Assembly (NCBI GenBank): GCA_035539175.1
Contig: DATLIY010000007.1
Location: 310,001 to 374,000 of the forward strand
Source of the DNA: Acidisarcina sp.
GTDB lineage: Bacteria > Acidobacteriota > Terriglobia > Terriglobales > Acidobacteriaceae
Direction: 5' to 3'
Length of the DNA: 64,000 nucleotides
Shown: in pieces, positions 58,366 to 60,150 of the stretch
Layout of the letters: each line of letters begins with the position of its first letter
Position numbering within the stretch: the first letter of the stretch is position 1
Translations under genes and position numbers: made by a program
The notes under the pieces: generated by a model
The model's database searches: none
What the model saw: the letters and a program-made list of their open reading frames with translations, nothing else
What the model was told of the DNA's origin: nothing

Positions 58366-60150
58366 ATGCCATCGCCCCCAATAGAAGAATACGGTCAGCG
58401 CCTGCGGGCTTGTGAACTCCGCATCGCCCACTTCGATCAGCTTCACATTCGGCTCGGGAATACTCGACTGCTGCTCGCGATCGCAACTCTTCTCGCGGCG
58501 TGGCTCTCTTTTGGACGGCATCTCTTCTCGCCATGGTGGCTCTTTCTGCCAATCGCCGCATTTGCCGGCATCGCCTCGTATCACTCGGGCGTGCTCCAAA
58601 GGCGGGCTCTCGCGGAGAGGGCCGCATCGGTGTATCGCAGCGGACTGGCTCGCATCGAAGATCGCTGGGCTGGCACAGGACAACAGGGCGAGCGCTTTCG
58701 CGATCCGCATCACATCTATGCCGCCGATCTCGATTTATTTGGAGCGGGCAGCCTGTTTGAGCTCCTCTCCATCGCCCGCACGCGCATGGGCGAAGACACG
58801 CTGGCACAATGGCTCTTATCCCCGTCGACGGTGGACGCGATCCACGAGCGGCATGCGGCCATTCAGGAACTCCGCCCGCAACTCAATCTGCGCGAAGACC
58901 TCGCCGTGCTCAGCGAGGATTCCCGCGCCGGAGTTCATCCCGAAGCCCTGTTGCAGTGGGCGGAATCCCCGAATGGTCTGCCTCAGCAATGGTTGCGATG
59001 GCTCGCCCTCTTGCTCGCCCTTCTTGCTGTTGCCACGGCGGTTCTCTGGGCGGCATGGGATGTGAAGTCCCCATTCCTGGCCACCGTGGCGATAGAGGGC
59101 GGCATCCTCTTTGTCTTCCGCAAGCAGACCGAGGAAGCCCTGGCCGGTACGGAGCGCGAGTTTGAAGACCTCAACCTGCTCTCCACCCTGCTGGCCCGGC
59201 TCGAGCGCCAACATTTCGTTGCGGCAAGGCTGCAGACCCTCTCCGCAGCGCTGTCCTCCCATCATCTGGAAGGCTCGCGGGCGATCGCGCGATTGCGAAA
59301 CATTGTGCAGTACATCGAGTCGCGGGAGAATTGGTTTCTCCGCATCCTGAATGTCCCGCTGATGTACTCGTTTCAGGCAGCCTACGCCGCCGAAACATGG
59401 CGGCGCGATCATGGGCACGCTGTCCGGACATGGCTCAGCGCCATTGGAGAGATGGAGGCCCTCCTCTCCTTGGCAGCCTTCAGTTACGAACACCCGGAGA
59501 ATTCCTTCCCCGAACTCATCAGCGGGGCGGCATCCTTCCACGCGGAAGAGCTTGGCCATCCGCTGATACCCGCAGCGAAGTGTGTTCGCAATACGGTCAG
59601 TATTGTGGAGCCGGCACGTGCGCTCATCGTAAGCGGCTCCAATATGTCCGGGAAGAGCACTCTATTACGTGCCGTCGGTGTGAATACGGTGCTGGCTATG
59701 GCTGGCGCGCCCGTCCGCGCCAGACTCCTGCGACTGACACCGCTGCATGTCGGCGCCAGCATCGCCATTCACGATTCGCTGCAGGAGGGAAACTCACGCT
59801 TCTATACGGAGATCACCCGCCTGCGCCAGATCTATGACCTGGCGGAACAGCCTCCGCCCCTGCTCTTTCTGCTGGATGAACTGCTGCAGGGCACCAACTC
59901 CAGCGATCGCCGCATTGGAGCAGAAGGAATCGTTCGCGCGCTGATGGATCGTGGCGCCATCGGGTTGATCAGCACTCACGATCTCTCCCTGACCGAGATC
60001 GATATCTCGCAGGATCATCGCCTCCATAACGTGCATTTTCAGGATGAGATGGAAAATGGAAGGATGAAATTCGACTTCAAATTACGCGAAGGGGTAGTTA
60101 CAAAGAGCAATGGGCTGGAACTGATGCGGTCCATCGGACTGAAAGTATAG
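58366..60150 (+). CDS. Membrane-anchored MutS-like ATPase
   Basis: This 594-residue protein carries a C-terminal MutS-type ATPase. The Walker A is GSNMSGKSTLLR (about 423-434), then SLQEGNSRFYTEI, the Walker B LLFLLDELLQGTNSSDR with the catalytic Glu, and the STHD motif. The N-terminal mismatch-recognition domain of MutS is absent. Instead there are two pairs of membrane segments (about 33-70, with LLLAIATLLAAWLSF and WWLFLPIAAFAGIAS, and about 205-245, with LALLLALLAVATAVLWAAW). A helical core and lever region lie between. Proteins of this type occur in several phyla, but their role is unknown; mismatch repair is unlikely without the recognition domain. It converges with the VWA gene. Confidence 0.85.
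   Translation: MPSPPIEEYGQRLRACELRIAHFDQLHIRLGNTRLLLAIATLLAAWLSFGRHLFSPWWLFLPIAAFAGIASYHSGVLQRRALAERAASVYRSGLARIEDRWAGTGQQGERFRDPHHIYAADLDLFGAGSLFELLSIARTRMGEDTLAQWLLSPSTVDAIHERHAAIQELRPQLNLREDLAVLSEDSRAGVHPEALLQWAESPNGLPQQWLRWLALLLALLAVATAVLWAAWDVKSPFLATVAIEGGILFVFRKQTEEALAGTEREFEDLNLLSTLLARLERQHFVAARLQTLSAALSSHHLEGSRAIARLRNIVQYIESRENWFLRILNVPLMYSFQAAYAAETWRRDHGHAVRTWLSAIGEMEALLSLAAFSYEHPENSFPELISGAASFHAEELGHPLIPAAKCVRNTVSIVEPARALIVSGSNMSGKSTLLRAVGVNTVLAMAGAPVRARLLRLTPLHVGASIAIHDSLQEGNSRFYTEITRLRQIYDLAEQPPPLLFLLDELLQGTNSSDRRIGAEGIVRALMDRGAIGLISTHDLSLTEIDISQDHRLHNVHFQDEMENGRMKFDFKLREGVVTKSNGLELMRSIGLKV

Follow-up and report, generated by a model that had tools for sequence, protein, structure and literature searches.

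Domains I and IV of MutS are its mismatch and DNA-clamp parts, respectively, and many prokaryotic MutS subfamilies are without domains I and II and largely uncharacterised, according to the available excerpts of a 2024 paper (PMC12292046), which also offer a precedent for a non-DNA role in that MutS2 acts on collided ribosomes. The gene considered here lies at positions 58366-60150 (+ strand) of a 64,000-nucleotide stretch of Acidisarcina sp. DNA (assembly GCA_035539175.1, contig DATLIY010000007.1, positions 310,001 to 374,000), referred to below as the window, in a genome of 3.92 Mb in 13 contigs. It is an intact open reading frame (ORF) of 594 amino acids (aa) with an ATG start, and a same-genus orthologue aligns with it at 78% identity across query residues 1-594, in agreement with the choice of start. 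An original prediction, made by a model from the sequence alone, had proposed a MutS-type ATPase with two membrane-helix pairs and no mismatch domain. The sequence family is already known to the databases, where relatives are recorded as 'MutS family DNA mismatch repair protein'; what is added here is the predicted membrane architecture, the grouping into one clade relative to MutS1 and MutS2, and the loss of a MutS1-type clamp. A literature search by title, abstract and phrase, covering mostly sources other than subscription journals, returned neither a description of a membrane MutS architecture nor an established role for the family, the latter as the original prediction had supposed. The available part of one report describes a 'MutS-related protein' of Myxococcus xanthus, lowered by 1.7 log2 units 10 h into mitomycin C treatment, which is not tied to the membrane family (PMC12288472).

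Against Pfam, the window protein matched MutS_III at residues 127-180 (E 5.8e-9, above the cut-off and covering part of domain III) and MutS_V at residues 420-591 (E 1.1e-23; 84.6 bits for a cut-off of 30.2), with which the protein ends, and no nuclease, Smr or HNH domain was found in its 594 aa. The same two domains were present in 80/80 members of an orthologue set (the window protein plus 79 others, selected from 93 loci that matched in full or in part), and MutS_I, MutS_II and MutS_IV in none of the 80 (E <= 0.01); E. coli MutS, run as a control, matched all five MutS Pfam domains. A match to UbiA (E 0.0036; 17.1 bits for a cut-off of 34.2) was dismissed as one of transmembrane (TM) composition. 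The ATPase motifs are complete in the window protein, as originally predicted, and since K430, S431, S477, D504, E505 and H538 are invariant in all 80 aligned orthologues, the protein is expected to bind ATP and to hydrolyse it. In MutS, the signature serine, which is present here, completes the ATPase site across the dimer. The serine of the GSN motif is replaced by P in 5/80 orthologues, and W345, outside the ATPase domain, is likewise invariant (80/80).

The window protein carries two hydrophobic hairpins, at about residues 31-76 and 209-250. Kyte-Doolittle windows of 19 residues (KD19) scoring above 1.4 fall within residues 30-77 and 205-251, which upholds the hairpins predicted from the letters at about 33-70 and 205-245. 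With 17-residue windows (KD17), a score of at least 1.6 is reached at the individual TM segments by 68 to 80 of the 80 orthologues (Table 1), compared with means of 6.5, 5.1, 7.9 and 7.2 of 80 at TM1 to TM4 after shuffling of residues 1-345 (50 shuffles), and all four segments reach 1.2 together in 76 of 80 orthologues versus a mean of 0.1 of 80 in the shuffles. On the Wimley-White octanol scale, TM1 to TM4 fall below 0 in 75, 74, 74 and 70 of 80, a lenient threshold that also marks stretches within the ATPase (22 in the 440s, with another 17 in the 490s) as well as some weak segments of the MutS1 controls. The majority-residue fraction is 0.37-0.51 across the TM segments (0.37-0.38 at TM3 and TM4) versus 0.72 in the ATPase; hydrophobicity is thus kept while the letters are not, which fits the expectation for lipid-facing helices, and such weak conservation would speak for anchors rather than for a substrate channel. 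The external loops are short with almost no charge, and charged residues flank the helices, a pattern suggestive of two hairpins with both ends inside. A fifth hydrophobic stretch, at residues 323-341 and missed in the original prediction, scores -7.4 on the Wimley-White scale, and 76 segments centred at 330-339 were counted in the 80 rows.

An AlphaFold2 (AF2) model built from the 80-row alignment (mean predicted local distance difference test [pLDDT] 92.5, predicted template modelling score 0.91) forms the N-terminal hairpin from helices 5-50 (46 residues) and 56-97 (42 residues), the second hairpin from helices 209-231 and 235-250, and a lever returning to the ATPase from helix 334-375. Because the two N-terminal helices are longer than the membrane is thick, part of each would project from it as a stalk. 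The clamp domain of MutS1 is beta-rich; as no strand of at least 3 residues occurs between residues 97 and 390, a clamp of that type is not present in the models. Structural comparison with VIA-align recovered a MutS-like fold from residue 108-115 to residue 587-594, the top row being MutS2 9a5o_B (Z 26.7, root-mean-square deviation [rmsd] 4.3 over 381) and the MutS1/MSH rows listed reaching Z 24.4-26.5 (human MutSbeta chain A, Z 26.5); residues 1-107 were covered by none of the 50 rows. Modelled alone, residues 1-345 took up nearly the same helices (pLDDT 92.5), for which Foldseek gave no match at E <= 0.001 (best E 0.81); a second VIA search with them returned weak rows only, among them coiled coils and ABC exporters, and no relative of residues 1-107 stood out.

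Profile alignment to E. coli MutS was firm over residues 128-203, which match E. coli 289-373, and from residue 349 (E. coli 537 onwards), the sequence alignment with MutS1 being unreliable between about 204 and 348; a clamp-less template aligned better than one with a clamp (E 1.6e-8 vs 9.6e-7), which is weak support at most. Taken with the published limits of E. coli MutS domain IV (444-503) and of the clamp and levers of T. thermophilus MutS2 (132-247; available text of PMC12292046), these firm flanks place hairpin 2 and the 323-341 patch in the lever/clamp stretch, inside domain III, and hairpin 1 stands at the place of domains I-II. The proposal that hairpins had replaced the recognition domain is therefore borne out for the first hairpin, at the recognition and connector place, and has to be given up for the second. 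Likewise, of the clamp-forming DNA ATPase held at the membrane that had been imagined, the membrane hold is retained as a prediction and the clamp, at least in its beta-rich MutS1 form, is not, a MutS2-like grip by the levers being possible.

In order that the membrane parts could not drive the grouping, a tree was built on the ATPase end alone. The 39 membrane-type rows (the window protein and 38 others, from records of six phyla) came together in a single clade (100/99), separate from the 8 MutS1 (98/94) and 4 MutS2 (100/99) sequences; as these were the only outsiders, the grouping holds relative to MutS1 and MutS2 and not to all MutS subfamilies. Nine rows had an odd composition, a long-branch warning applies to MutS2 versus the membrane clade, and L128, on a very long branch, was excluded. 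This last sequence (G341:C858), a 543-aa MutS-like protein with a GPNSGGKT Walker A and no segment at KD19 >= 1.6 before the ATPase, appears to be another divergent kind of MutS. Compilation of the motifs with the tree revealed that (i) G[SA]N[MA][SA]GK is found in 39/39 rows of the membrane clade, versus GPN in 12/12 outsiders, (ii) the switch reads [TS]HD in 39/39 versus TH[YH] in 12/12, (iii) DE..xGTN occurs in 35/39 versus 0/12, and (iv) an internal segment (KD19 >= 1.6) lies 183-235 residues upstream of Walker A in 38/39 (the exception being L135), with Bacteroidota, staphylococcal and clostridial records among them, and in 0/12 MutS1 and MutS2 proteins. Four MutS1 rows (L017, L020, L021 and L022) have one segment elsewhere, 71-72 residues before Walker A in three and near the N terminus in one. 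The window protein shows the lever-region hydrophobic segment, the G[SA]N Walker A and the [TS]HD switch of the membrane clade. The comparison with MutS subfamilies envisaged at the outset, run against MutS1 and MutS2, has thus yielded a separate clade.

Within the clade, the quick tree gives the long form (25 rows) as a single starred group; the short form (14 rows) receives 91/94 in the careful tree, a value that does not earn the star. The shorter proteins (536-580 aa; Staphylococcus, Ruminococcus and Subdoligranulum records) have one N-terminal TM segment and one or two internal segments. As two acidobacterial short-form copies (L123 and L124) lack a strong N-terminal TM segment, it is the internal segment that stays constant among the membrane-type MutS proteins.

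An alignment-based scan of the genome collection gave, as the best 80 of at least 512 stretches (E <= 1e-3, which may include other MutS kinds), Acidobacteriota and records labelled Proteobacteria/Gammaproteobacteria, Planctomycetota and Myxococcota, unlike a scan of the same collection with the single protein, which gave no match. In a sample of the phylum, 103/297 genomes (95/258 good ones) match at E <= 1e-40, in a patchy distribution and with some short-form copies and split fragments among them. Matches were also found in 23 plasmid records: four, all from Bacteroidota, cover 89-92% of the query with an identity of 27-30% and are hydrophobic at all four TM places, and the other 19 (Bacillota and some Bacteroidota) match the lever end and the ATPase only. 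Named carriers include Tunturiibacter lichenicola (filed as Edaphobacter), Acidicapsa dinghuensis and Bacteroides finegoldii, and such strains make the question of function experimentally approachable.

The lever stretch that ends on DNA in MutS holds predicted membrane elements here, and for this reason we favour, with a confidence that falls a little short of even, a reading in which the protein is an integral inner-membrane MutS-type ATPase that forms a dimeric switch driven by ATP and acts on a partner bound to the membrane or close to it, which is probably not DNA. It would dimerise through composite ATPase sites, by analogy with MutS; both ends and the ATPase would be cytoplasmic, with the hairpins spanning the membrane; and ATP binding would close the dimer and move the levers, whose far ends would be held in or at the membrane rather than around DNA. 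Because of this placement of the lever ends, the target of the work would probably be a protein or complex that is bound to the membrane or lies near it (its assembly, reactivation or disassembly) and not mismatched DNA. Mismatch repair is an unlikely function, as the protein has no mismatch, connector or MutS1-type clamp domain and no nuclease domain, and the genome holds separate MutS1, MutS2 and MutL genes; in this the original prediction of a protein unlike mismatch repair holds good, and of its two suggestions, tethering DNA or acting on another substrate, we judge the second the likelier. The lysine 5,6-aminomutase reactivase ATPase KamC would, by its NCBIfam name, be a second precedent for a MutS-type ATPase that works off DNA. 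A more far-reaching version, in which a MutS ATPase was remade from DNA clamp into membrane machine, the lever/clamp stretch becoming a membrane hairpin and closing of the dimer moving the TM helices, is conceivable and rather doubtful. If true, a clade with members in records from six bacterial phyla, at present filed under mismatch repair, would do membrane-protein or envelope work. If the membrane reading is right, many 'mismatch repair' genes would be membrane ATPases with another task, the counts of repair genes per genome would be inflated, and the MutS lever would be used without DNA, alongside MutS2 on ribosomes.

Several points weigh against the membrane-partner reading. The argument from the clamp is good against MutS1 and less so against MutS2, which lowers our confidence, since the levers may have a MutS2-like grip on nucleic acid. 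The missing Pfam domain IV is decisive against MutS1 only and is by itself weak evidence, because the genome's own MutS2, which matches MutS_V, MSSS and Smr, gives neither a MutS_III nor a MutS_IV match. The net charge of the lever region (mean -5.2 in the 80 orthologues, -11 in the window protein, -4 to -7 in MutS1) does not discriminate from MutS1. Membrane insertion is a prediction from hydropathy and the model; in a whole-protein test at KD19 >= 1.6 the window protein passes at TM1 and TM3 only, and its TM4 is marginal by Wimley-White. The neighbourhood shows no partner or pathway, as in an all-against-all comparison of flanking ORFs from the 80 loci (many of them ended by contig ends) the best common family reached 5/80. 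Moreover, the C terminus stops, in the profile alignment, at about E. coli MutS residue 783, so that part of a MutS1-type helix-turn-helix, which follows the ATPase at residues 765-800 (available text of PMC12292046), is missing.

Among the alternatives, an unlikely one that nevertheless survives best is a membrane-tethered DNA handler, whose levers would grasp the chromosome, incoming DNA or an intermediate of recombination and whose hairpins would anchor that DNA at the membrane. The protein retains a MutS fold from about residue 110 onwards, with MutS2 at the head of the VIA rows, MutS2 can bind recombination intermediates although it has no domain I (available text of PMC12292046), and the MutS4A/MutS4B operon raised recombination in M. 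smegmatis (available text of PMC5742357). However, a MutS1-type clamp is seen neither in the models nor by Pfam, a nuclease, Smr or HNH domain is lacking, and no neighbour of any kind is conserved across the 80 loci; the lever charge is uninformative either way. More improbable is a machine resembling ABC exporters, in which lever motion would open or shift a dimeric TM bundle and so move a substrate or force across the membrane. The MutS ATPase belongs to the ABC class, each chain has two membrane-helix pairs with cytoplasmic extensions, and ABC exporters are frequent among the weak structural matches to residues 1-345; yet the likeness is not significant by Foldseek, the best ABC-exporter rows reach Z 8.9 (rmsd 21.4) and Z 8.7 (rmsd 6.1 over 98 residues) when long helices need a Z of about 13, coiled coils outrank them, the TM letters are weakly conserved and the external loops very short.

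Very improbable, too, is that the hairpins are soluble dimerisation or packing elements. AF2 is silent on lipid, TM1 and TM4 are modest in the window protein, and the lenient Wimley-White threshold marks ATPase stretches as well in some rows, but the four segments recur in 76/80 orthologues, the peaks are stronger in relatives (-9.3 and -20.0 in Bacteroides; -12.7, -13.9 and -11.3 in Staphylococcus), and none of the 12 MutS1 and MutS2 proteins has one at the internal place; a soluble protein with buried core helices, named at the outset as the outcome that would count against the idea, is not what the data suggest, membrane insertion itself being a prediction. Scarcely credible, finally, is an accessory mismatch-repair protein, as the database name of the relatives and the MutL-family matches in nearly all phylum-sample genomes might imply, for it has no domain I or II, MutS1 is present in the same genome, the ATPase tree sets it in a separate clade, and a MutL-family match (E <= 0.001, a loose threshold) occurs in 101/103 carriers versus 189/194 non-carriers, without association, the MutL profile being at its ceiling and uninformative (290/297 at E <= 0.001, 279/297 over the curated cut-off, and 14/14 control genomes).

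Table 1. Features of the MutS-type ATPase gene, with positions in the window
Feature	Position	Strand	Basis
Predicted membrane MutS-type ATPase gene, 594 aa	58366..60150	+	ORF, Pfam, same-genus orthologue
Residues 5-30, start of 46-residue helix; putative cytoplasmic stalk	58378..58455	+	AF2 helix 5-50
Predicted TM1, about residues 31-50	58456..58515	+	KD17 >= 1.6 in 77/80
Predicted TM2, about residues 56-76	58531..58593	+	KD17 >= 1.6 in 70/80; AF2 helix 56-97
Residues 79-97, tail of helix 56-97; putative stalk	58600..58656	+	AF2
Domain III first half, residues 115-202	58708..58971	+	Pfam 127-180; VIA start 108-115; hhalign to E. coli 289-373
Predicted TM3, residues 209-231, lever/clamp region	58990..59058	+	KD17 >= 1.6 in 80/80; AF2 helix
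Predicted TM4, residues 235-250	59068..59115	+	KD17 >= 1.6 in 68/80; Wimley-White marginal, -0.7
Hydrophobic patch, residues 323-341, at lever-helix start	59332..59388	+	Wimley-White -7.4; 76 segments/80 rows
Lever helix, residues 334-375, W345 invariant	59365..59490	+	AF2; alignment of residue 349 onwards with E. coli MutS 538 onwards
MutS_V ABC-type ATPase domain, residues 391-594	59536..60147	+	Pfam, AF2, VIA
Walker A GSNMSGKS, residues 424-431	59635..59658	+	Orthologue alignment
Signature-like region DSLQEGNSRFY, residues 470-480, S477 invariant	59773..59805	+	Alignment
Walker B and D-loop LLFLLDELLQGTNSSDR, residues 499-515	59860..59910	+	Alignment
Switch histidine THD, residues 537-539	59974..59982	+	Alignment

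The gene stands by itself on its strand between its neighbours, divergent from rpsO-pnp and convergent with a VWA gene that matches TIGR03436 'acidobact_VWFA'. The arrangement, with rpsO and the last part of pnp on the upstream side and VWA-flgL-flgK on the other, is kept in the same-genus locus L024 and was not found in L025 or L026; the place beside rpsO was therefore rejected as a functional clue. A PADLOC scan for defence systems gave no match, and PHROGs gave two unnamed families, matching residues 358-592 only. The promoter scan found no promoter-like site, and terminator-like sites numbered 3 versus 2.1 expected.

The 80-orthologue set omits L004 and L024, which duplicate the window and L005, the fragments or broken copies L012, L013, L015, L016, L041 and L050, the insert copy L014, and, for redundancy, L028, L030, L031, L034 and L065. 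In a second set of 18 regions, L125 (a fragment) and L127, L129 and L130 (no ORF by motif) were unused, and L122 holds a MutS1; L137, which lies outside that set, was also unused. One in-frame TGA is seen in the membrane MutS frame of L013 (G024:C487) and of G045:C157:17961-19289, which may be broken or mis-assembled. Two loci from metagenome-assembled genomes labelled Gammaproteobacteria/Proteobacteria (L036 and L040) group with the window in the acidobacterial long form, suggesting horizontal transfer or mis-binning. In the record of Staphylococcus phage PhiSepi-HH3 (L111, 133805-140449), mutS stands between the ABC-type ATPase gene yheS and tsaD-rimI-tsaB-tsaE, in the gene order of an S. 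aureus record (L105), and looks like host chromosome in a phage entry; the membrane MutS of L105 and that of an S. epidermidis plasmid (L107) lie near an ABC-F ATPase gene, by chance or through a link. The Bacteroides finegoldii 'plasmid 15' (L104) carries rplQ, the RNA polymerase alpha gene, rpsD, rpsK, rpsM and infA and may be a mislabelled chromosomal contig.

Reportedly, the subfamily numbers MutS3-MutS6 and MutS8 come from Lin 2007 and Ogata 2011, and the membrane clade may already carry a published number. In comparison with KamC (NCBIfam NF052383), which by its name acts on protein, the window protein shows an ATPase likeness over residues 411-538 (E 3.1e-20), and at 72.5 bits it stays below the family cut-off of 300. 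MutS7 consists of domains I, III and V plus an HNH domain (available text of PMC3166940), of which the window protein lacks domain I and HNH. MutS4 is encoded by two adjacent genes, the stop of A overlapping the start of B (available text of PMC5742357), whereas the window gene is flanked by rpsO and the VWA gene, and no second MutS-like ORF of at least 200 aa was found in the 80 loci L024-L103 (some ended by contig ends); this distinction is one of gene arrangement alone. With MutS1 (bacterial MutS and MSH), the window protein shares the domain V ATPase, parts of domain III and the fold; it differs in that domains I, II and IV are not detected in its family, in its membrane hairpins, in reading GSN for GPN and THD for TH[YH], in its separate clade, and in a score of 97 bits against the NCBIfam mutS1 cut-off of 641.7. 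With MutS2 it shares the absence of domains I and II, the top VIA row and the best sequence match in the Protein Data Bank (7vuf, E 1.4e-19), but it has no Smr or MSSS domain, both of which are present in the genome's own MutS2, and it carries a lever-region membrane hairpin and belongs to a separate clade. The proteins of Bacteroides/Parabacteroides and Staphylococcus filed as 'MutS family DNA mismatch repair protein', in contrast, fall in the same ATPase clade and have the internal hydrophobic segment or segments; the four full-length Bacteroidota members also share the N-terminal pair, and the staphylococcal members differ in their length of 536-545 aa and their single N-terminal TM segment.

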